Part shown: piece after piece, positions 45,116 through 55,512 of the stretch
How the letters are laid out: each line of letters opens with the position of its first letter
Position numbering within the stretch: the first letter of the stretch is position 1
Source: Algibacter lectus
GTDB taxonomy: Bacteria > Bacteroidota > Bacteroidia > Flavobacteriales > Flavobacteriaceae
Assembly (NCBI RefSeq): GCF_900112395.1
Contig: NZ_FOLN01000003.1
Location: 558,001-622,000, forward strand
Length of the DNA stretch: 64,000 bases
Reading direction: 5' to 3'
The notes under the pieces: generated by a model
The model's input: only the letters and a program-made list of their open reading frames with translations
Told to the model about the DNA's origin: nothing
Database searches by the model: none
Position numbers and translations under genes: made by a program

Positions 45116-45155
45116 AAAAAGCGCTAAACCTTAATTAAGGGTTTAGCGCTTTTTT
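45116..45155. terminator. Bidirectional terminator between alaS and the photolyase operon
   Basis: GCGCTAAACC (45121-45130) pairs with GGTTTAGCGC (45140-45149), extended by AAAAA/TTTTT. The photolyase stop codon (45135-45137) sits in the loop, so the last residues of that protein are encoded inside the terminator. Confidence 0.92.
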
Positions 45156-46424
45156 GTATGTAGAAATAGCACGTTCTCGTGCAAATTTATGTTCGACCAT
45201 AGGTTGCGGATAGGTTAATTCATCATAATCTTCAACCCAACGGCGTATGTAAATAGCATCTTTATCAAATTTTTTCAACTGTTCGGCAGGATTAAAAACT
45301 CTAAAATAAGGTGCGGCATCGCAACCTGTGCCAGCAGCCCATTGCCAATTTCCGTTATTTGCAGAGAGTTCGTAATCTAGTAGTTTTTCAGCGAAATATG
45401 CTTCGCCCCAACGCCAATCTATTAAAAGGTGTTTACATAGAAATCCGGCAGTAATCATGCGTACACGATTATGCATATATCCCGTTTTGTTTAATTCGCG
45501 CATACCGGCATCAACCATGGGGTAGCCCGTTCTTCCTTCGCACCAAGCTTTAAAGTCTGCTGCGTTATTCCTCCAAGGTATCGCATCGTATTTTTGTTTG
45601 AAATTTTCGGTAACTACTTTAGGAAAATGAAAGAGGATTTGCATGAAAAATTCGCGCCAAATAAGTTCACTTAAGAATATAGCATTTGTTTTTAATGCTA
45701 TATTCACCATGTTTCTGGTGCTAACAAGTCCAAATCTTAAATGTGGTGAAAGGTATGATGTTTGATCTTGTGCTGGAAAATTTCGGACTTCATCATAGCG
45801 ATCTAAAGCCGTTAAATTATATGGTTTTACTAGTATTTTACTTTTAGTAAATCCAATATCTTCTAAAGAAGGAAAAGTTAAATTAATCTTGTGAAATCGA
45901 GTGTTATCAATCTCATAATTTAATACATCTGCTTTCTCATCGAATTTTTTTAACCACTTATTTTTAAATGGTGTATATATTGTATATGGGGTATTATCGT
46001 TTTTTAGAATATCGTTTTCTTCAAAAATTACTTGGTCTTTGAACGACTTTGTTTCTATGCCCTTAGATTTTAATAATTTTGAGATTTCAAGGTCTCTTTT
46101 TATGGCGTAAGGTTCGTAATCTTTATTAAAAAATACACGCTCAATGTTATGCTCTTCAATTAGAGCTTTCCAAACTACTAGAGTCGAGCCTTTTTTTACA
46201 ACAAGGCTCGATCTAAACTCGGTAAGTTCTTTGTTTATGTTTTCTAGAGTGTTGTGAATAAAGGAAACCCTAGCATCGTCTTTAGGTAGTGAGTCTAAAA
46301 TATCATCATCAAAAATAAAAATAGGTAATACATTATTACTCGATTTTAGAGCATAATGTAAAGCCGTGTTATCTTCTAGTCTTAAGTCGCGTCGAAACCA
46401 AAATAGAGTTATTTTATTTTCCAT
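45135..46424 (-). CDS. phr: Deoxyribodipyrimidine photolyase (class I cryptochrome/photolyase family)
   Basis: The enzyme uses light and FAD to split pyrimidine dimers. The 429-residue protein has an N-terminal photoantenna fold (LFWFRRDLRLEDN) and a C-terminal FAD domain with LSELIWREFFMQIL and the classical TGYPMVDAGMRELNKTGYMHN. DWRWGEAYFAEKLLDYE and NNGNWQWAAGTGCDAAPYF follow. The tryptophans of WQWAAG and the FRVFNP ending favour a CPD photolyase over a cryptochrome. It is the last gene of the carotenoid operon and overlaps the SRPBCC gene by 11 bases. Confidence 0.95.
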   Translation of the reverse strand: MENKITLFWFRRDLRLEDNTALHYALKSSNNVLPIFIFDDDILDSLPKDDARVSFIHNTLENINKELTEFRSSLVVKKGSTLVVWKALIEEHNIERVFFNKDYEPYAIKRDLEISKLLKSKGIETKSFKDQVIFEENDILKNDNTPYTIYTPFKNKWLKKFDEKADVLNYEIDNTRFHKINLTFPSLEDIGFTKSKILVKPYNLTALDRYDEVRNFPAQDQTSYLSPHLRFGLVSTRNMVNIALKTNAIFLSELIWREFFMQILFHFPKVVTENFKQKYDAIPWRNNAADFKAWCEGRTGYPMVDAGMRELNKTGYMHNRVRMITAGFLCKHLLIDWRWGEAYFAEKLLDYELSANNGNWQWAAGTGCDAAPYFRVFNPAEQLKKFDKDAIYIRRWVEDYDELTYPQPMVEHKFARERAISTYKKALNP

Positions 46425-46899
46425 TAAAGTAGGTTTCTAAGGTTTTATAACGGTATTCGAAAATACCTTTTAATTGTTTTTTTATGAAAAGAGTTTGAGC
46501 TAAATCACCTAAAATTCCAAAAGGTATTTTATATGAGATTTTATCTTTCATTAATGTTTTTCCGTCAGGTTGGCTGTAAAACCAATGTTCATGATGCCAC
46601 ATTCTGTATGGACCAAAACGCTGTTCGTCTATAAAGAAAGATTCGTGTTCAACTTGTGTTATTTCTGTAACCCAATTTGTTTTTATACCTGGAAGAATAC
46701 CAACTTTATAAGTTATTATTTGTCCGGCATAAGCCTTTTTATCAACTTCAGATGTGATTTTAAAACCCATTTCTGAAGGAGTGATTTTTTCTAGATTATT
46801 AGGAGAGCTAAAAAAAGACCAAGCTTCATGTAGCGGAATGTCGATTTCTTGTGTAGCCTCTAAGGTGTAAATTCCAGAATGTTTTTTTATATTAATCAT
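46414..46899 (-). CDS. SRPBCC family ligand-binding-like protein
   Basis: This 161-residue single START/Bet v1-like domain contains DIPLHEAWSFFSSPNNLEKITP (N-terminal strand and helix), VTEITQVEHESFFIDEQRFGPYRMWHHEHWF and the C-terminal helix FEYRYKTLETYF. The ligand is unknown. Homologues of this type (COG4276-like) sit beside photolyase and short-chain dehydrogenase genes in LitR-linked clusters of other phyla, as I recall. It lies between the SDR and photolyase genes. Confidence 0.88.
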   Translation of the reverse strand: MINIKKHSGIYTLEATQEIDIPLHEAWSFFSSPNNLEKITPSEMGFKITSEVDKKAYAGQIITYKVGILPGIKTNWVTEITQVEHESFFIDEQRFGPYRMWHHEHWFYSQPDGKTLMKDKISYKIPFGILGDLAQTLFIKKQLKGIFEYRYKTLETYFNGK

Positions 46900-46908
46900 A
46901 ATAAAAAC

Positions 46909-47586
46909 TTAGAGTTTTAGACTAGTTATTCCCGCATCTATTGGGAATGTTTGTCCGGAAATTGATTTAGCATCGCTAGATAACAAGTATTTGGTTAGTG
47001 CAGCTACTTCATTAGGATCTAAAATAGATTTTAATGGGTGGCGTTCGGTCATGGTTTCTCTTTGTTTTTCATTACGTAATAGTCTGGAAGCTAATGGTGT
47101 GTCTGTAATAGTTGGCGCAATAATATTGAAACGTATTTTTGTTGCATATTCTGCTGCTAACGATTTTGTTAAACCTTCTAAAGCCGCTTTACTTGTTGCA
47201 ATACTAGCGTGAAAAGGCATGCCCATTTGTGTGGCTACACTACTGAATAAAACCACGCTTCCACGACCTTCTATTAGAGCTTTTTCATAATGTTTAATAG
47301 TTTTTATAGCGCCTAAAACGTTAATGTTGAAATCGTTTTTAAAGTCGTCTAATTCTAAGCGAGATAGTGCTTTTAGATTGATACTTCCTGGGCAATAAAC
47401 TAAAGCGTCTATGCTATCTATTTCTGGTAACTCATCTTCTAAAACATCTAAAGTGTGTTGCGTAATTGTAGAAGATGTTTCTATTGCCGTACGGCTTATG
47501 TTTACAATGCTATACGTGTCTTTTAAGATGTTTATAATGGCTTGGCCAATACCTTTACTGCCACCAATAATGACTAGTTTTTTCAT
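46909..47586 (-). CDS. Short-chain dehydrogenase/reductase-like protein lacking the catalytic Tyr
   Basis: This 225-residue Rossmann protein has GGSKGIG (8-14) for NAD(P) and a CPG segment at about 65-67 where NAG is usual. Ser is present at S116 (LFSSVA). The active-site position normally Tyr (S-x12-Y-x3-K) is Ile129, followed by the conserved K133 (SIATSKAALEGL). Without Tyr, ordinary SDR catalysis is unlikely, so a regulatory, epimerase-like or altered chemistry is possible. The DNA codon is ATT, so a single-base sequencing error would not give TAT from it without changing the first base. Confidence 0.88.
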   Translation of the reverse strand: MKKLVIIGGSKGIGQAIINILKDTYSIVNISRTAIETSSTITQHTLDVLEDELPEIDSIDALVYCPGSINLKALSRLELDDFKNDFNINVLGAIKTIKHYEKALIEGRGSVVLFSSVATQMGMPFHASIATSKAALEGLTKSLAAEYATKIRFNIIAPTITDTPLASRLLRNEKQRETMTERHPLKSILDPNEVAALTKYLLSSDAKSISGQTFPIDAGITSLKL

Positions 47587-47592
47587 AATTAT

Positions 47593-48204
47593 TTATTTAG
47601 GTCTTTGGTAGGTTAATCTTTTATTTTTAGTTGGTATGGCGTAAGTGTCTAAGCCATTAATAACAGCTGTGTTAGCTTTCATTAAGTCTGCAAAACCATC
47701 ATGCTCCACAAGATCATCGTTAATGTATAAATCTGTTATTTCACCTAAAATTAAAATAGTACCATTTGCTTCTATATCTATTTTTTGTAAAAATGTCATA
47801 CCCATTTTTATTGTCGATTGCTTTACAAAAGGCGCATAAAAATCGTTATTGTATTCCTCCTCTAATCCTGTTTTATTAAACTCTGAAACATCTTTAGGGT
47901 ACTTGGCAGATGTATGATGAGCATCTTCAACTATCGCTTCGTTAATATGATTAATGGTGTAATAACCTGTTTCTATAATATTATCGAAAGTATGGCGCCT
48001 TACCGTAGTTGGTCTCAGTACAAAACCTAAAATAGGTGGGGCAGAACCGTAATGCACTACGGAGCTAAAAACAGCAACATTTGTTACTCCTGATTTAGAT
48101 TTTGTCGCTATTAAATTTGCAGGTTTATAGCCCGTAATACTATTAATCAGGTTTATTTTATAAATGTGATCGAGTTGGTCTATATCTTTACGGCTAAAAT
48201 ACAT
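47593..48204 (-). CDS. Flavin reductase-like FMN-binding protein
   Basis: The protein has 203 residues. It has a flavin-reductase-like split-barrel: NSITGYKPANLIATKSKSG, FSSVVHYGSAPPILGFVLRP (flavin-phosphate region) and HTFDNIIETGYYTINHINE. An AHHTSAKYPKDVSEFNKTGL segment and a final strand ILGEITDLYI follow. It may supply reduced flavin to an oxygenase or photolyase-related reaction; that partner is speculative. It abuts the ABC1 kinase gene without a gap. Confidence 0.9.
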   Translation of the reverse strand: MYFSRKDIDQLDHIYKINLINSITGYKPANLIATKSKSGVTNVAVFSSVVHYGSAPPILGFVLRPTTVRRHTFDNIIETGYYTINHINEAIVEDAHHTSAKYPKDVSEFNKTGLEEEYNNDFYAPFVKQSTIKMGMTFLQKIDIEANGTILILGEITDLYINDDLVEHDGFADLMKANTAVINGLDTYAIPTKNKRLTYQRPK

Positions 48205-49515
48205 TTATAAGGTTTTATAATTGTTTATTATAATATGGTTTGGTTGTAAATCGTGCATTAAATTATACAATCCGAAAAATGTTCTATTGATATATATGAA
48301 ATGTTTCGAGCCACGATTACCATTCATTTTTTTAAGTTCTGTGCTTTGTGCGTATTTAGTGCTTAGCTCTGCTATTTTGTTGAAAAATGTAGGATTTGAA
48401 AAATCGAAAACCTCTTGTTGCAAAGGCGTTGTGAAAAGCGATAGCATTTCGTGAAATAAGGTTTTAAAAAACACAATTTCTTCGGGTGTATCCGTTGGTT
48501 TTAAAATTTCTAATTCATATAATTTCGCTTCAAAAAAAGCTGGATCTTCGATGTTTTCTTTTTCAGCTAACTCAAAATAAGGCGTGTAAAAAGTTAGCGG
48601 AACTTCTTTCATACAACCAAAATCGATAGCGACTAACTCATTTTCTGGCGATACTAAAAAGTTACCAGGATGGGGATCTGCATGTACTTTTTTTAAGGTA
48701 TGCATTTGGAACATGTAAAAATCCCATAAAGCCTGACCAAGTTTATTTGAAACCGCAGGATCATTATTCTGTTTTGTGAATTCTGAAATATGAAGTCCGT
48801 CCATCCAGTCCATTGTTAAGATTTTGTTAGATGAAAATTCTTCGTAATATTTCGGGAATTTTAAATTAGGAATATGTTTGCAAGCTTCAGATATTTCAAT
48901 ACTTTGTTCAAGTTCGAGCGTATAGTTTGTTTCTTCTATAAGTTTGTTCTCGATTTCTTTAAAATAATCGTCGGTACCTTCACCTTTAATATTGAACATA
49001 CGTAAGGCGATAGGTTTTACAAGGGCTAAATCTGATGAAATACTATCTGCAACACCTGGGTATTGAATTTTAACGGCAAGTTTTTTGTCTCCTTTTGTGG
49101 CCTTGTGTACTTGACCAATACTGGCTGCATTTACAGATTCTGCTGTAAACGTATCGAAAACTTCCGAAGGTGTTTTTTTGAAATATTTTTTAAATGTTTT
49201 AGCAACTAGTGGTGCTGATAAAGGCGGAACAGAAAATTGCGACAAAGAAAACTTCTCTACATATGCATTGGGTAAAATGTTTTTCTCCATGCTTAGCATT
49301 TGTGCTACTTTTAGAGCGGAGCCTTTCAGGTTTTTTAAACCATCATATATATCGGTAGCATTGGCTTCATTTAAATTATCTTTAGCTTCAGCCTCTGTTT
49401 TTACCATTTTCTCACCATAATATTTCGCATAATTTACGCCAACCTTTAGGCCTGTACTCACTAGTTTAGTGGCACGTTGTATTTTTGATGTCGGTATTTT
49501 ATCTATTGTTTTCAT
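48205..49515 (-). CDS. ABC1/UbiB/AarF family atypical kinase-like protein
   Basis: The protein has 436 residues with the UbiB/ABC1K signatures KGSALKVAQMLS (KxGQ-like motif), AASIGQVHKA, KLAVKIQYPG (nucleotide-binding Lys), VHADPHPGNFLV (catalytic loop) and AIDFGCMKEV (metal-binding DFG). The family acts in quinone and isoprenoid lipid metabolism. In plastids several ABC1K proteins control prenylquinone and carotenoid metabolism under light stress, which fits this operon. The ATG at 49515 overlaps the tetR stop codon as ATGA; an upstream TTG at 49539 is less likely. Confidence 0.93.
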   Translation of the reverse strand: MKTIDKIPTSKIQRATKLVSTGLKVGVNYAKYYGEKMVKTEAEAKDNLNEANATDIYDGLKNLKGSALKVAQMLSMEKNILPNAYVEKFSLSQFSVPPLSAPLVAKTFKKYFKKTPSEVFDTFTAESVNAASIGQVHKATKGDKKLAVKIQYPGVADSISSDLALVKPIALRMFNIKGEGTDDYFKEIENKLIEETNYTLELEQSIEISEACKHIPNLKFPKYYEEFSSNKILTMDWMDGLHISEFTKQNNDPAVSNKLGQALWDFYMFQMHTLKKVHADPHPGNFLVSPENELVAIDFGCMKEVPLTFYTPYFELAEKENIEDPAFFEAKLYELEILKPTDTPEEIVFFKTLFHEMLSLFTTPLQQEVFDFSNPTFFNKIAELSTKYAQSTELKKMNGNRGSKHFIYINRTFFGLYNLMHDLQPNHIIINNYKTL

Positions 49516-50171
49516 GTGGACATTGTTTTTTCTTTCCAAAGAAACTTCGCAAAATCTAAAACGCTTTCTAGTGGTTTTATTTCTTTTAAATCGAAACTAA
49601 CTTGTACCGATTTTTCTATGAAAATATCTGTTTTTTCAAAATTTGGAGATGTGTCTTCTAGCCAAAACTGTATGGTGAATAATAATTGTGCCCAAGCGGT
49701 TTCGTTGGCGCCCTTTTTATTTAGAGAATTCAGTGTTTTGTTTTTTAGATCTACGCTATGGGTGTAAATCTCACTTTCTATATATTTAAGAAAAGTTGAC
49801 CTAAGTTTAGATAATAGCTTTAAGGCTTCTAGCTTATTTTTATTTTGTGCTAATTTTAAATAAACATAAGATCTGTTTGCGTTTAGCATTTCGAAAAAGG
49901 TGAAATAAAAGCTTAATAACTTATCCTTTGGTGCGTAATGCGTATAATCTTCATTTTCTACTAATAGCGCCAAAGTGTTTTCGCAAAAAAGTGAAAATAT
50001 ATGTTTTTCTAAAACATCAAAATTGCTAAAATATTTATAGAAATCGTTTTCTTCAAAATTGTTAGCATGTGCAAATGCATACACCGTTTTGGGTATGTTA
50101 TCGTCTATCAATAAAGTAGACATGTATAAATCTATTATTTTTTCTGCTGTAATGTTTTTTTTTCTAGCCAT
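49512..50171 (-). CDS. TetR-family transcriptional regulator
   Basis: The protein has 219 residues. The N-terminal helix-turn-helix reads TAEKIIDLYMSTLLIDDNIP then TVYAFAHANNFEENDFYKYF, a TetR pattern with the usual F-x-x-Y-F end. The remaining helices (about 60-210) form the ligand domain and no effector is predictable. It overlaps the ABC1 kinase gene by 4 bases and follows tspO by 11 bases, so it is coexpressed with the operon that it may help control. Confidence 0.88.
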   Translation of the reverse strand: MARKKNITAEKIIDLYMSTLLIDDNIPKTVYAFAHANNFEENDFYKYFSNFDVLEKHIFSLFCENTLALLVENEDYTHYAPKDKLLSFYFTFFEMLNANRSYVYLKLAQNKNKLEALKLLSKLRSTFLKYIESEIYTHSVDLKNKTLNSLNKKGANETAWAQLLFTIQFWLEDTSPNFEKTDIFIEKSVQVSFDLKEIKPLESVLDFAKFLWKEKTMST

Positions 50172-50182
50172 GAGTTTTTGTT

Positions 50183-50656
50183 TTAATTGTTAAATACAAT
50201 GTAGGCGTTTAGACTTGCTGCAATCGTCATCCATATTAAATATGGAGCTATAAATATGGTGTAATACTTTACCGTTTTTATATAGTTGAAGGTGAAATAA
50301 CCTATTAATAACCATAGTGAAACAATAAAAATTAAAGCTATTAGCGTTTGGTGCTGATTAAAGAATAGGTAATTCCATGATACATTTAAAAACCATTGCA
50401 AAGCGTAGAGCTTCATTAAAGGTTTAAAACCAAACGGGAAATTAAGGCTTAGTGCTGCCATGTAAATAGCAAAACTTATCATAACTGTGGTCCAAGCAGC
50501 TCCAAAAACCCAACCTTCTGGTGTCCAAGGGGCTTTGTTTAGGGAGGCGTACCAAGGTGATGTTTGTCCGTTATCCATCAAGAGGACACCAACACCAAGT
50601 GCTAAAATGTTTATGCACAAAAAAATAGTGAATCTTACTAGTTTGTTATTTTCCAT
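50183..50656 (-). CDS. tspO: TspO/MBR family protein (tryptophan-rich sensory protein)
   Basis: This 157-residue membrane protein has five hydrophobic segments. Family motifs are SPWYASLNKAPWTPEGWVFGAAWT and LQWFLNVSWNYLFFN, with the aromatic residues that line the ligand site. TspO binds porphyrins and, in Rhodobacter, tunes photopigment genes to oxygen. In this operon it sits between crtYcd and tetR, overlapping the lycopene cyclase gene by 11 bases. A role in porphyrin photo-oxidation or sensing is inferred. Confidence 0.95.
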   Translation of the reverse strand: MENNKLVRFTIFLCINILALGVGVLLMDNGQTSPWYASLNKAPWTPEGWVFGAAWTTVMISFAIYMAALSLNFPFGFKPLMKLYALQWFLNVSWNYLFFNQHQTLIALIFIVSLWLLIGYFTFNYIKTVKYYTIFIAPYLIWMTIAASLNAYIVFNN

Positions 50657-51341
50657 GTGCTTTTTGTTTAAATGAATTGAAAATTAATTGTACTGAAAAT
50701 AATAAGGTAAAGGCGTAAAAAATATCTTCAAATGGTATCGTGAAAATTCTAAAACCTAAGTTTTCGTTGTTATTATACCATACAATGGGTTCGTCTATAA
50801 AGCTTCCTGTTAGTATTCCGTTTACTAAAAGAAACGGTAATAAAATGATTAAAAAACTTAAGAAGTAACGTTGTAATACTTCCAAATGAAATTTTAAACC
50901 ATAAATTAAAAGCACCATAAAAAATATAAAATTTAAAGTTGTGTACCATTTCCCGAAATGAAATAATAATAAAACAAATACTAGAATGAGTATTAAACCT
51001 CCACTTATTATGGTTGCTGTTTTCGAGAGTTTAAAATTTGGTAAATAATAGGCTAAAACTTCGTGCGTAAACAAACAGGCATAAGGAATACAGAAGAAAA
51101 ATAACCACTCTTCTATTGGCATACCTAAAATTGCAATTGGTAAATGGTAGGAATCGTTAAATCCCCAAATGCCAAATTTTGTAAAAAGAACATCCCAAAT
51201 TATAAAAGGTATTGCCACTATTAAAATGCTTAAAAAGGCACTTTTAGCGTATTGTATAAAGTGAAATTTTTTTTCAAAAATACTATATAGCAAAGGAATA
51301 CTTAAACTCCCTAATGTTAATATGAGATATAGGTATGGCAT
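50646..51341 (-). CDS. crtYcd: Lycopene beta-cyclase, fused CrtYc-CrtYd type
   Basis: This 231-residue membrane protein has about seven hydrophobic helices. The two PxE(E/D) active-site motifs of heterodimer-type cyclases appear once in each half: GMPIEEWLFFF (about 85-95) and TIPFEDIFYAF (about 207-217). The halves that are separate CrtYc and CrtYd in actinobacteria are therefore joined here. The enzyme converts lycopene to beta-carotene. It overlaps crtZ by one base. Confidence 0.93.
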   Translation of the reverse strand: MPYLYLILTLGSLSIPLLYSIFEKKFHFIQYAKSAFLSILIVAIPFIIWDVLFTKFGIWGFNDSYHLPIAILGMPIEEWLFFFCIPYACLFTHEVLAYYLPNFKLSKTATIISGGLILILVFVLLLFHFGKWYTTLNFIFFMVLLIYGLKFHLEVLQRYFLSFLIILLPFLLVNGILTGSFIDEPIVWYNNNENLGFRIFTIPFEDIFYAFTLLFSVQLIFNSFKQKAHGK

Positions 51342-51796
51342 TATTGTACTTTTTTAAAGTATTTTAAAGGAACAAAAAGCATCCCGAAGCATTCGCCGTC
51401 TGGTTTGTCTAAGTGTTTGTGGTGTATTTTATGCGCTTTTCTTAAGCCGCGTAAGTACCAATTTTGAGTGTTTTTAAACCAACTAAAACGTCTATGTATT
51501 AACACATCATGGATTAAAAAATAAGCTAAGCCATATAATAAAATACCTAAGCCAATAAAGAATAAAAAATTAAGTTCTGGTCGAATCCCGAAAAAGAACA
51601 ATAGAATACTAGGCGTTGCAAAAATGATGAAGAACGCATCGTTTTTTTCGAAAACATGTGGGTATCCCGGTTGGTGGTGGTCTTCGTGTAAAAACCAACC
51701 AAACCCATGCATAATATATTTGTGTGTGCACCAAGTAACACCTTCCATAATTATAAAGGTGATTAATGTTGTGAGTATATAGGTTAAAATGATCAT
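51341..51796 (-). CDS. crtZ: Beta-carotene hydroxylase (CrtZ, fatty-acid-hydroxylase superfamily)
   Basis: This 151-residue membrane diiron hydroxylase has the four histidine motifs of CrtZ: HKYIMHG, HEDHH, HDVLIHRR and HKIHHKH. It adds 3- and 3'-hydroxyls to beta-carotene, giving zeaxanthin. Together with crtB, crtI and crtYcd the cluster predicts zeaxanthin as end product. No ketolase (crtW) is present here. It is linked to the neighbouring genes by overlaps of 4 and 1 bases. Confidence 0.96.
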   Translation of the reverse strand: MIILTYILTTLITFIIMEGVTWCTHKYIMHGFGWFLHEDHHQPGYPHVFEKNDAFFIIFATPSILLFFFGIRPELNFLFFIGLGILLYGLAYFLIHDVLIHRRFSWFKNTQNWYLRGLRKAHKIHHKHLDKPDGECFGMLFVPLKYFKKVQ

Positions 51797-52221
51797 AGGG
51801 TTGTGTAATTTAAAATGTATGTATCCAAATAATCGCTGTTGTCTTTAATTTTTAATAGTTCTGATAAAAACTGTTTGTCATGTTCTATATCCGAATTGTA
51901 ATTTAACATCTTGGGTAATTGTTCTTGTATAACCAAACGCACATATATTAAGTTCGCGTTTTTTGGCTCTTTTATTATTAATTGCTCAAGCTTAGTTTTT
52001 CCCTTGTTAAAGGTGTTAAGTTTTTGCCATGGTAATACTTTATATTCTGCTTGTTTCATTTCTAAAGAAATAACATAGGCTTGAATATCTGTACTATTGC
52101 TTTTTTTATATTTTGTTATGTATTCTATTTCTTGAGTTTTATTTTTAATATCATGATACTCAACAATGTGTTCTGGTGTCGAGTTCTGAAATAAAAAGAG
52201 TAAAACACACAAATAGTACAT
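51793..52221 (-). CDS. Unknown exported protein within the carotenoid operon
   Basis: The protein has 142 residues with a short hydrophobic N-terminus (MYYLCVLLFLFQNS), probably a signal or anchor. The mature part is a helical, charged region (KNKTQEIEYITKYKKSNSTD, YVISLEMKQAEYKVLPWQKL, NANLIYVRLVIQEQLPKMLN). I recognise no family. Its genes overlap crtB by 1 base and crtZ by 4 bases (ATGA), so it is an integral part of the operon rather than an insertion. Confidence 0.8.
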   Translation of the reverse strand: MYYLCVLLFLFQNSTPEHIVEYHDIKNKTQEIEYITKYKKSNSTDIQAYVISLEMKQAEYKVLPWQKLNTFNKGKTKLEQLIIKEPKNANLIYVRLVIQEQLPKMLNYNSDIEHDKQFLSELLKIKDNSDYLDTYILNYTTL

Positions 52222-53063
52222 TACATTAAATTTAGCTTATATTTTACGTAGCTTCGAGCTAGTAGATTCATCTTCATTGGGTTAGATACTCTGATTCGTG
52301 TATTTATAATTTTTTCTGAAGGCGTGTTTTTAAGTTTTTTAAGTAATTTTCTATAGTATCTATAAGCCATGTACACTCCAAATTTAGCTTCAACAGGTAG
52401 GTTTAAGATGCCGTTTTTATAAGCAAATTCAAAATCAGATTCAATATCTTGAATAATGATATTTTTTGAAATGGCATCGAGCTCTTTAAGGTTTATGTTC
52501 GGAAAATATGAACGGTTTAAAACGTTAATATCATCTTTTAAATCTCTTAAGAAATTTACTTTTTGAAATGCAGAACCTAAACGTTTTGCGGCTTCTTTTA
52601 GATCTTCATATTGCTCGTCGTTTCCATTTACAAAAACTTTTAAACACATAAGGCCAACAACATCGGCAGAACCATAGATATAAGCTTTGTATTCTTCGTC
52701 GGTAGTATATTCGGTTTTATGCAAATCGGCACGCATACTTTTTAAAAATGCCTGAGTTAAATGATCGGGAATTTTATATTGATTCACCGTATGGATAAAT
52801 GCATTCAAAATAGGGTTAAGGCTAATGCCTTGCGCTTTAGATGCGTAATAATCTTCTTCAAATTTATTTAATAGAAGTTCCTTGTCATATTCATGGAAAG
52901 AGTCTACTATTTCGTCAGCAAAACGGACAAAACCATAAATATTATAAATAGCCGATCGTATTTTTGGTGAAAGCATTTTTGTAGCTAACGAAAACGAAGT
53001 GCTATACTTTTGGGTTACCAACTTACTACAAGAGTAAGAAACCTCGTCAAACAGTTGTTTCAT
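52221..53063 (-). CDS. crtB: Phytoene synthase
   Basis: The enzyme joins two geranylgeranyl diphosphates into phytoene, the committed step to C40 carotenoids. The 280-residue protein has the squalene/phytoene-synthase motifs YNIYGFVRFADEIVDSFHEY (first Asp-rich), YIYGSADVVGLMCL and LGSAFQKVNFLRDLKDDINV (second Asp-rich). No geranylgeranyl diphosphate synthase gene is in the window. It lies 13 bases behind crtI. Confidence 0.96.
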   Translation of the reverse strand: MKQLFDEVSYSCSKLVTQKYSTSFSLATKMLSPKIRSAIYNIYGFVRFADEIVDSFHEYDKELLLNKFEEDYYASKAQGISLNPILNAFIHTVNQYKIPDHLTQAFLKSMRADLHKTEYTTDEEYKAYIYGSADVVGLMCLKVFVNGNDEQYEDLKEAAKRLGSAFQKVNFLRDLKDDINVLNRSYFPNINLKELDAISKNIIIQDIESDFEFAYKNGILNLPVEAKFGVYMAYRYYRKLLKKLKNTPSEKIINTRIRVSNPMKMNLLARSYVKYKLNLM

Positions 53064-53076
53064 AGTTGTTGTGTTT

Positions 53077-54543
53077 CTAGTTATCGTTTTTCAAAATTAA
53101 ATCAGAAGCTATTTTTCCAGAAATTAATGCTGGAGGAACTCCTGGTCCAGGAACTGTTAGCTGCCCTGTAAAATATAAGTTCTTAACTTTTTTACTTTTT
53201 ATTTTTGGTCTTAAAAATGCGGTTTGTGTCAAAATGTTAGCCAAACCATAAGCGTTTCCTTTATAAGAGTTGTAATCTTTTTTAAAGTCGTTAACACAGA
53301 AACTTTCTTTAAATAGAATATGATCTGTAACGTTTTGGCCGGTTAATTTTTCTAGCCTTTTTATTATAATGTTGAAATATTCCTCTCTTAATTCTGGTGT
53401 ATCCTCTAAATCTGGAGCTAACGGAATTAAAAATGTAGCCGCTTCTTGGTGTTCCGGAGCAAAAGTATCATCCGTTATGGACGGAAAACTTGCATAGAAT
53501 AAAGGTTCTTTTGGCCAACTCGGATTGTCATAAATGGTTTTTGCATGGGTATCAAAATCTGTATCAAAAAATAAAGTGTGATGACATACATTCTTTAATT
53601 TTTTATCTAACCCTACATAAAACAATAAAGACGATGGAGCAAAAACTTTCTTATCCCAATATTTTTCCGAATATTGACGGTGAGATTGTGGTAATAATGT
53701 TTCTGTATGGTGGTAATCTGCGCCACTTAAAATTAATGTCGAAGGAATAAATTCGCCATTAACTGTAAGTCCTTTTATGTTTTTGGTTGCATCCACTTCA
53801 ATAGATTCTACGTTAGCATTTGTTTTGAATGAAACACCTAAGCTTTTTGCTAGTAATTCCATAGCTTCAATGACTTTATGCATGCCACCTTTTGGGTGCC
53901 AGGTACCTAAACCAAAATCGGCATAATTCATAAAGTTATAAAAAGCTGGCGTATTACTTGGCTTAGCACCGAGAAATAATACGGGAAATTCTAAGATTTC
54001 GATTAATTTAGGGCTTTTTATATCTTTTCTTACCTGAGTTCTTATGCTCGAGAAGAACTGAGTAATTTTACTAATGGTTGTTGGAGTCACCAACTCTAAA
54101 GGAGAAACACCTGGTTTGTAAACCAAATCGTTAATAGAAACATCGTAATTAAACTTAGCCGATTTTAAAAAGGCTTTTAAGTGTTTAGAGCTTCCTGCTT
54201 CTTCGCGCTCAAAAAGTTCGTAAATTTCTTTTAAAGTTCCTGGGATTGTAAGAGCTTCGCCGTCTTCAAAGTAAGCTTTGTAAGCTGGGCCTAATTTCTC
54301 TAACTCGTAGTAATCTGATGGTTTTTTGCCAAAATCGGCAAAGAATTTTTCGAATACATCCGGCATCCAGTACCAAGTTGGTCCCATGTCGAATGTAAAA
54401 CCATCCTTTTTTAATTGGCGTGCTCTGCCTCCAATTAATTCGTTTTTTTCTAACACTTCAACGTTGTATCCTGCTTGTGCAAGATAGCACGCCGCCGATA
54501 AGGCAGAGAACCCGGATCCGATAATATGTATTTGTTTTTCCAT
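53077..54543 (-). CDS. crtI: Phytoene desaturase (CrtI type)
   Basis: This FAD-dependent enzyme desaturates phytoene to lycopene. The 488-residue protein begins MEKQIHIIGSGFSALSAACY with the Rossmann GxGxxx, then VEVLEKNELIGGRARQL and FDMGPTWYWMPDVFEKFF. The C-terminal FAD motif is NLYFTGQLTVPGPGVPPALI with SGKIASDLI. It is the first gene of a 12-gene operon. The start is the ATG at 54543; a TTG at 54555 would fall within the operator. A -7 box ends only 9 bases before this ATG. Confidence 0.96.
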   Translation of the reverse strand: MEKQIHIIGSGFSALSAACYLAQAGYNVEVLEKNELIGGRARQLKKDGFTFDMGPTWYWMPDVFEKFFADFGKKPSDYYELEKLGPAYKAYFEDGEALTIPGTLKEIYELFEREEAGSSKHLKAFLKSAKFNYDVSINDLVYKPGVSPLELVTPTTISKITQFFSSIRTQVRKDIKSPKLIEILEFPVLFLGAKPSNTPAFYNFMNYADFGLGTWHPKGGMHKVIEAMELLAKSLGVSFKTNANVESIEVDATKNIKGLTVNGEFIPSTLILSGADYHHTETLLPQSHRQYSEKYWDKKVFAPSSLLFYVGLDKKLKNVCHHTLFFDTDFDTHAKTIYDNPSWPKEPLFYASFPSITDDTFAPEHQEAATFLIPLAPDLEDTPELREEYFNIIIKRLEKLTGQNVTDHILFKESFCVNDFKKDYNSYKGNAYGLANILTQTAFLRPKIKSKKVKNLYFTGQLTVPGPGVPPALISGKIASDLILKNDN

Positions 54544-54578
54544 TTTGTTTAACAAATATACAAAATAAGTTAAACAAA
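54544..54578 (-). promoter_or_regulatory. crtI promoter with two operator copies
   Basis: Read on the minus strand, TATATTTG (54560-54553) is a perfect -7 box. Its last four bases begin TTTGTTAAACAAA (54556-54544), a near-palindrome that touches the crtI ATG. A second copy, TTTGTTTAACTTA (54578-54566, 11 of 13 identical to the merR copy), is centred 22 bases upstream and covers the only TTG, which stands 14 bases from the -7 box. The first 17 bases match the element before the merR gene at 15 of 17 positions. Confidence 0.7.
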
Positions 54579-54589
54579 AATTAAATTAA

Positions 54590-55483
54590 TTAAACTTCTT
54601 TTAAAAGAGGAAGTATATTCGGAAAGAATTTAATGTCCGATTTAAATGCCGATTCATCAAGTTCCTGTAATTTATAACCTGCTGCTAGTAGTTTGTGTTG
54701 TGTTGGTGCTAAGTTTTTGTCTAAATCTTTAAAGTATCCTTCTACTAGATCTACACTCGGGCTTACGGTAATAGACGTTATAAAACACATTTTAGAGTCG
54801 CTATTAAAAAAGGAATTTAAGTTGTCCATTGGTAAGCTTCGTCCTAAATATATGGTTTTGTATCCTTTTAATAATAATTCGTAGTTAATATAGAGTAAGC
54901 CAATTTCGTGTATTTCATTTTCTGGCAAAAAGAGCACATAAGTTGTAGTGTCGCTTAAGTTAGAATAGCCTAGTTTTTCGGTTTCAATTAATATTTTCTG
55001 TGTTATTAAATTTGATATAAAGTGTTCGTGTGCAGGTATTAAAGTGTTAGTTTGCCAGAGCAGTCCAATAAAATTTAATAAGGGTATTAAGTTTGTTTTT
55101 ATAACTTCACTAAAGGTGTTTTGTTGAAGGAGTTTAGCGTATGTGGTGTTAAATAATACGCTGTCAAATTGTATCATGGCAAGTTTAAAAGCTTGCGTAG
55201 AATGTTGGTTTAGGGCATTTTTGTTGGCTAGTTCTCTTGCGGTGTGTTGAATAACATCGTAAGGCATTTCTGCAATTTTAGAAATTTTATAGTTATTATC
55301 CTTTAGTAATACAATGTTTAAGAGCTTTTTTAAGCTTTCGGTAGTGTAGTATCTTATATTGGTATCTGTTCGCTTTGGAGCTAATAAATTGTATCGTTTT
55401 TCCCAAATACGAATAGTATGCGCTTTAATTCCTGAAATATTTTCAAGGTCTTTTATTGTAAAGTTGTCTTTAATTTCGTTCAA
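54590..55483 (-). CDS. CarH/LitR-like MerR regulator with cobalamin-binding domain
   Basis: The protein has 297 residues. The N-terminal MerR helix-turn-helix (about 8-75) has FTIKDLENISGIKAHTIRIW and EKRYNLLAPKRT. Next comes a B12-binding helical cap (about 95-165) containing W143-x9-E153-H154, the motif that contacts the adenosyl group in Thermus CarH. The Rossmann B12 domain follows with E190-I-H192-E-I-G, where H192 matches the lower cobalt ligand, then SITVS and AAGYKL (GG reduced to AG). The base-on light-state His after W is Gln144 here. The only usable start is TTG at 55483; an in-frame TAA lies 9 bases upstream. The likely role is dark repression of the crt operon. Confidence 0.88.
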   Translation of the reverse strand: MNEIKDNFTIKDLENISGIKAHTIRIWEKRYNLLAPKRTDTNIRYYTTESLKKLLNIVLLKDNNYKISKIAEMPYDVIQHTARELANKNALNQHSTQAFKLAMIQFDSVLFNTTYAKLLQQNTFSEVIKTNLIPLLNFIGLLWQTNTLIPAHEHFISNLITQKILIETEKLGYSNLSDTTTYVLFLPENEIHEIGLLYINYELLLKGYKTIYLGRSLPMDNLNSFFNSDSKMCFITSITVSPSVDLVEGYFKDLDKNLAPTQHKLLAAGYKLQELDESAFKSDIKFFPNILPLLKEV

Positions 55484-55495
55484 CGTATTTTAGTT

Positions 55496-55512
55496 TTTGT
55501 TAAACAAATGTA
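55496..55512 (-). promoter_or_regulatory. Operator and -7 box of the CarH-like regulator gene
   Basis: On the minus strand, TACATTTG (55512-55505) is a -7 box whose TTTG begins TTTGTTTAACAAA (55508-55496). The 13-base element is the exact reverse complement of the copy at crtI. It ends 12 bases before the TTG start, which suggests autoregulation. No TTG -33 element is found at normal spacing. Confidence 0.65.

Follow-up and report, generated by a model that had tools for sequence, protein, structure and literature searches.

A predicted CarH-type photoprotection regulon with a palindromic operator and a fasciclin partner in Algibacter lectus and other Flavobacteriaceae

The closest described systems are regulators of the CarH/LitR type. 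In Thermus thermophilus HB8 the gene for CarH (TtCarH) is located on pTT27, surrounded by crtB, photolyase, flavin reductase and SDR genes. CarA and CarH of Myxococcus xanthus and its relatives are likewise MerR-B12 repressors of carotenoid (crt) genes and use direct-repeat operators (PMC8156234; all papers are cited here from available excerpts). The class II LitR proteins of Pseudomonas, PplR and PmlR, have light-inducible targets that include photolyase; of the two B12-binding domains they have kept the four-helix bundle alone, and they answer to a LOV protein (PMC9758184). Here we describe a merR gene and the twelve genes behind it in a stretch of 64,000 nucleotides from the Algibacter lectus genome (contig NZ_FOLN01000003.1, positions 558,001 to 622,000; hereafter the window).

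The window regulator shares with TtCarH the domain plan and the motifs Wx9EH and ExHxxG, at an identity of about 20-25%, and the four genes named above for pTT27 are all present in the window; photolyase is also what it has in common with the class II LitR targets. The host protein has a Gln in place of His132, and its predicted operator is a palindrome, unlike the tandem direct repeats of Thermus and the direct repeats of Myxococcus. Further, the 8.8 kb of pTT27 around carH contain no annotated TspO, TetR or ABC1 gene, unlike the window, in which the following features are found (positions within the window, all on the minus strand).

55476..55507, minus: predicted merR operator, dyad TTGTTTAAC-N14-GTTGAACGA, right arm across the start codon
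54590..55483, minus: merR, CarH-type regulator, 297 amino acids (aa), TTG start at 55483; MerR_1 and B12-binding_2, best PDB match TtCarH by sequence and fold
54545..54577, minus: predicted crtI operator, dyad TTGTTTAAC-N15-GTTAAACAA with internal -7-like TATATTTG
53077..54543, minus: crtI, phytoene desaturase (NF058655, 734.6 bits, cut-off 640)
52221..53063, minus: crtB, phytoene synthase (SQS_PSY)
51793..52221, minus: 142-aa protein, function not assigned, no family match in Pfam or NCBIfam
51341..51796, minus: crtZ-like carotene hydroxylase, named by position and the His-box motifs HEDHH, HD and HKIHH
50646..51341, minus: crtYcd, lycopene cyclase (Lycopene_cyc; PF18916, TIGR03462)
50183..50656, minus: tspO (TspO_MBR, PF03073)
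49512..50171, minus: tetR (TetR_C_23, PF17931)
48205..49515, minus: ABC1/UbiB-like kinase, ATG at 49515 (PF03109)
47593..48204, minus: flvR, flavin reductase (Flavin_Reduct, PF01613)
46909..47586, minus: SDR oxidoreductase (PF13561)
46414..46899, minus: srpb, SRPBCC-like protein (PF10604 at E 5e-4, under the cut-off)
45135..46424, minus: phr, DNA photolyase (PF03441, PF00875)

All twelve open reading frames from crtI to photolyase were found, with merR 46 bp upstream and co-directional. With the crtI start set at ATG 54543 and that of abc1 at ATG 49515, the spacing from merR-crtI onward is 46, then 13, -1, -4, -1, -11, 11, -4, 0, 6, 9 and -11 bp, i.e., among the twelve genes no gap exceeds 13 bp and six overlaps measure 1-11 bp. 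The crtZ product has no Pfam or NCBIfam match; its name is based on the place of the gene and on the His boxes, which we take to be the mark of carotene hydroxylases.

Judged from sequence, this regulon for photoprotection is real and conserved and has a CarH-type regulator at its head; its control by light and B12 is what we infer. We consider it likely that the protein is an adenosylcobalamin (AdoCbl)-dependent repressor which keeps this regulon silent in the dark. In the dark, the AdoCbl-bound regulator would occupy a palindrome of 32-33 bp that covers its own start and likewise the crtI promoter; this occupancy would shut off merR itself together with the twelve-gene operon. Upon illumination the Co-C bond would break and the regulator would come off the DNA, and its release would turn on the synthesis of carotenoids, repair by photolyase and the redox, quinone and porphyrin genes together.

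The regulator carries a MerR-type DNA-binding domain (PF13411, 59.7 bits, cut-off 21.6) and a four-helix B12-binding domain (PF02607, 31.5 bits, cut-off 23). The closest solved chain by sequence is TtCarH (E 6.6e-14). When an AlphaFold model (pLDDT 86, pTM 0.82) was used in Foldseek, the top 12 matches were full-length TtCarH chains, followed by entries for cobalamin-binding domains (TMt at most 0.81). We aligned 101 flavobacterial proteins, that of the window and those of 100 loci (80 best matches and 20 from drawn genomes, with one genome possibly counted twice across the two sets). The Wx9EH motif is conserved almost throughout (W143 in 101, E153 in 101, H154 in 98 proteins), and the same holds for the lower-axial His motif ExHxxG (E190 and H192 in 101, G195 in 100). 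The x41 SxT/V element reads S237-x-T239 in the window, and 70 of the 101 proteins have Tyr at 237. The MerR domain, the two motifs and the modeled CarH fold, all class I features, support placing the regulator in the CarH/LitR type. The plan of class II LitR, with a four-helix bundle only, does not fit: a second domain with the axial His is present. A cobalamin adenosyltransferase (PF01923) is encoded in the host genome and in 54 of 60 family genomes searched. An earlier note on this DNA had described the twelve closely packed genes with merR 46 bp upstream, had read W143-x9-E153-H154 and H192 in the MerR protein and had named it CarH/LitR-type. The coordinates are confirmed by open reading frames and spacing, the residues are in place in the alignment, and the structural search, by sequence and by fold, bears out the type.

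The palindrome TTGTTTAAC-N14/15-GTTAAACAA recurs across the family. A pattern covering both window operators has exactly two matches in the 4.8-Mb host genome, at crtI and at merR, and a reversed control has none. Dyads were scored as matches among the 18 arm bases, mostly with a threshold of 15; at merR a second right-arm form was accepted, in the shuffled sequences likewise. The crtI dyad reaches at least 15 of 18 in 52 of 53 loci with a merR-crtI gap of 40-160 bp (shuffles 2/1060). At the merR start, 83 of 100 loci score at least 15 (shuffles 6/2000) and 93 at least 14 (62/2000). Upstream regions of other genes in the sampled loci provide the background: 2 of 1104 reach 15 and 41 reach 14, and the lone region that reaches 16 precedes a fasciclin gene. 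Among 299 genomes the exact pattern occurs in 76, the reversed pattern in 4. In 39 loci the merR-crtI gap is below 40 bp; that the crtI operator had been lost there was rejected as trivial, 29 of these gaps being too short for the dyad; the merR dyad (at least 14) is retained in 38 of these 39. Weak dyads, with up to 3 mismatches, are no commoner in the host genome than the reversed control; given such controls, scans of this genome rely on near-exact sites only. Matches of the pattern in viral contigs (95 stretches in 2.9 million contigs) were taken as chance.

A -7-like box, TAnnTTTG, lies within the crtI dyad in 38 of 47 loci and against the left arm of the merR dyad in 88 of 93; in 87 of 93 the merR start codon, ATG or TTG, falls within the right arm. 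Boxes inside or abutting the dyads suit a blocking of RNA polymerase, and therefore repression and autoregulation are the directions we infer; occlusion of the promoter by dyad occupancy is the favoured mode. In the window about 10 bases separate the end of this box from the crtI ATG at 54543, which suggests a leaderless or near-leaderless message.

The same site precedes parts of the window operon where these stand alone. A homologue of srpb is present in 168 of 199 genomes; the best 70 by score were surveyed. The dyad is upstream of srpb in 25 of 34 loci without a recognised module gene in front and in 1 of 36 in which srpb follows tspO, sdr, flvR or crtY, a split made by hand for which an automatic flag gave 20/24 against 6/46. 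In genome G025 an exact dyad ends some 30 bp short of tetR-abc1-flvR and sdr follows farther downstream, the gene order being that of the window, and in G154 another lies inside an unlinked tetR-abc1...sdr-GPx-tspO-srpb-phr run (GPx named by eye). Since it was the exact-pattern search that turned up the sites in G025, G053 and G154, these three are a selected set. The window operon thus resembles a fusion of units which elsewhere bear their own copy of the site. These stand-alone parts are the best evidence that the operon is one co-regulated unit, presumably cotranscribed.

Other exact sites, which are not claimed as regulon, precede GLPGLI-TonB genes twice and KatG, CIA30-SDR and a photolyase run once each. 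One exact dyad stands before genes for a photolyase, a photolyase-related protein and a second photolyase-like protein (L190:4486-8951). Two small proteins with the similar starts MILNTTY and MVLNTTY each have an exact dyad in front (L192:5164-5613, L196:4745-5164); the former has no Pfam match.

The arrangement is widespread. Of 199 Flavobacteriaceae genomes sampled, 172 have a match to the merR protein at E 1e-3 or better, in some cases a weak one. Downstream of merR the 100 loci carry crtI (98), crtB (97) and crtZ (95). The tspO-tetR-abc1-flvR group is present in several Tenacibaculum loci, and tspO with srpb-phr in two Polaribacter loci, one metagenome-assembled genome and one Tamlana locus. 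Other families of the class likewise have similar regulators in the vicinity of crt genes. Algibacter miyuki (L033) and a congener (L113) have the complete twelve-gene train as well, a recurrence that makes it more than chance. An arrangement unique to the host was therefore rejected: merR-crtI-crtB-crtZ is near-universal in the 100 loci. The earlier note had singled out the order with TspO and ABC1 inside as special, a view which does not stand against the synteny comparison since A. miyuki and several Tenacibaculum loci have both inside as well; its proposal of one co-regulated unit fared better, in that the stand-alone parts bear the same operator. The palindrome, the Gln for His132 and the fasciclin genes described below go beyond it.

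Exact sites away from crt led to genes for multi-fasciclin lipoproteins. A dyad of at least 15 precedes the fasciclin lipoprotein gene in 73 of 90 genera (25/30 and 48/60), in a survey of the 90 of 94 genomes with the protein (G004, G015, G064 and G157 are outside the count) whose FAS1 query was picked because its gene bore the site. With either arm type accepted, 79 of the 90 FAS1 genes reach at least 15, a figure without a background set. G015 and G157 do carry the site. A fasciclin gene with a dyad of 16-17 of 18 lies between merR and crtI in four loci of Tenacibaculum and one of Tamlana, and in G084 such a gene adjoins merR. In G025 and G014 a CarH-type gene, a fasciclin gene and crtI stand side by side in differing orders (L297, L300).

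Eleven genera, host included, have a second CarH-type gene in divergent orientation to a fasciclin gene. In the host it faces a gene for a three-fasciclin lipoprotein, with an exact dyad of a second, C-type form between them (G000:C18:53801-56234; L308, L221); the arms of the paralogue-linked sites differ by one base from those of the crt-type site. The exact C-type pattern occurs in the host genome in this gap only, whereas with up to 2 mismatches there are 3 matches against 7 in the control. All 13 weaker CarH-type proteins, i.e., the eleven linked to FAS1 and two not beside a fasciclin gene, keep the W, E, H, E and H residues. In a tree made without L316 and L321, which carries a long-branch warning, one group with moderate support (98/78) unites the eleven paralogues with one of the remaining two proteins and with two sequences of other families. 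The recognition helix reads RKWE(T/S)RY in 9 of the 11 paralogues and RIWEKRY in the crt-type proteins of the tree. At least one TTGTCTAA-type arm is found at 11 of 11 paralogue-adjacent fasciclin genes as compared to 3 of 72 others with a site, 7 of the 90 being siteless; Fisher's p for this association is 2e-11, ignoring shared descent. The divergent pair is also present in two other genomes of the class (L313, L315). On a plasmid of the betaproteobacterium Eleftheria terrae (L232) a CarH-like MerR gene and a gene for a single-domain fasciclin protein lie in divergent orientation. The link between CarH and fasciclin proteins may thus extend beyond Bacteroidota.

A number of observations weigh against an AdoCbl-dependent dark repressor. 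The full-length TMq to TtCarH in Foldseek is just 0.46-0.55, and it is the cobalamin-binding domain alone which fits well. The NCBIfam CarH equivalog NF052513 scores 72.1 bits and does not reach its cut-off of 400; therefore we call the regulator CarH-type and not that equivalog. Order-wide, a merR match at E 1e-20 is present in 67 of 148 sampled genomes, with none in 81. CarH operators known so far are non-palindromic tandem 11-bp direct repeats, nAnnTnnACAn (PMC8156234). Such repeats, as in Thermus, Bacillus and Myxococcus, differ from the site predicted here, which is an inverted repeat with a spacer of 14 or 15; the TnnACA core is retained in the arm TTAAACA, in an inverted layout. Next, position 144, His132 in TtCarH, is Gln in 96 of the 101 proteins and His in 5. 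In TtCarH, His132 is reported as critical for tetramer disassembly, and the H132A variant is mostly tetrameric in light (PMC10442372). The Gln144 protein could then stay on DNA after photolysis and be a B12 sensor which reports the AdoCbl supply rather than a light switch. We regard this as unlikely: the position varies among proteins of the cobalamin photoreceptor type, with Arg in CtMerR and Gln in SasPcob (PMC11796333), and the target genes are those of light protection.

The classic GG motif reads xG in the family alignment, and the Rossmann B12-binding model is absent from the Pfam matches of the regulator. Both features would suit a B12-independent regulator, CarA-like or driven by a partner as in class II LitR, with a pocket kept by descent. 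This appears very unlikely, as W143 and H192 are present in every one of the 101 proteins, whereas CarA is devoid of the Trp of Wx9EH (PMC9304148) and class II LitR has its four-helix bundle only (PMC9758184). Finally, G079 and G147 have the FAS1 dyad without a detected merR, in assemblies 81% and 73% complete, as if the dyad were the site of another transcription factor and merR a mere neighbour. Yet the dyad sits on merR itself in 83 of the 100 loci, and its C-type arm accompanies the paralogue in 11 of 11 cases against 3 of 72; another factor is hardly to be expected. Thus, AdoCbl-dependent dark repression by the CarH-type protein is the reading we prefer.

Light-induced carotenoids do exist in such bacteria. 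Chryseobacterium lacus, yellow under light but white in the dark, offers a point in favour, as its crtI-crtB-hyp-crtZ-crtY genes are reported to be light-induced; the light-induced hypothetical gene occupies the place of the 142-aa gene in the window, between crtB and crtZ (PMC7064467). The authors, in the excerpt available, found neither car nor lit genes and suspected that a new regulator was at work, which is a point on the opposing side; light induction in these bacteria would not necessarily proceed via the regulator described here. A MerR gene at crtI is mentioned, without tested function, for Nonlabens (PMC11855829) and Sediminicola (PMC4732338). MliR of Bizionia was rejected as a counterpart, being, according to the available excerpt, another MerR type without effector domain. 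In a partial search, without subscription papers, no literature was found that joins CarH/LitR with fasciclin or reports this operator in Flavobacteriaceae. As far as the sequences tell, the operator geometry is new and unlike that of CarH sites known so far, and the fasciclin partner is unexpected.

A fasciclin protein of Azospirillum is reportedly linked to photo-oxidative stress. In Rhodobacter the photo-oxidative stress response is under RpoE/ChrR control. Its genes include an SDR and the fasciclin protein RSP_1409, which is induced under photo-oxidative stress in R. sphaeroides, and the available excerpt mentions no B12 regulator (PMC7074977). Algal AstaP is a carotenoid-binding fasciclin protein, and a cyanobacterial homologue failed to bind (PMC10147662). 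By sequence, the host protein is nearer to periostin-type domains (E 9e-34) than to AstaP (E 4.7e-10), and carotenoid binding by it is a hypothesis. It is conceivable, though doubtful, that Bacteroidota possess a B12-light regulon with, as its second arm, a carotenoid-binding surface fasciclin lipoprotein, an AstaP counterpart produced along with its pigment. In some genera this lipoprotein would be under a dedicated CarH paralogue with a one-base-shifted operator.

CarH has been characterised in a few model bacteria; here a conserved regulon of this type is predicted in a major group of pigmented heterotrophs. The defined operator predicts regulon members genome by genome, and the family provides a CarH variant that lacks the His regarded as critical to light switching, together with a new operator geometry. 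The paralogues would be a natural case of a regulator type and its operator changing together, and the regulon raises the question why photo-oxidative responses involve fasciclin proteins time and again. The light-response network of the family is now open to testing.

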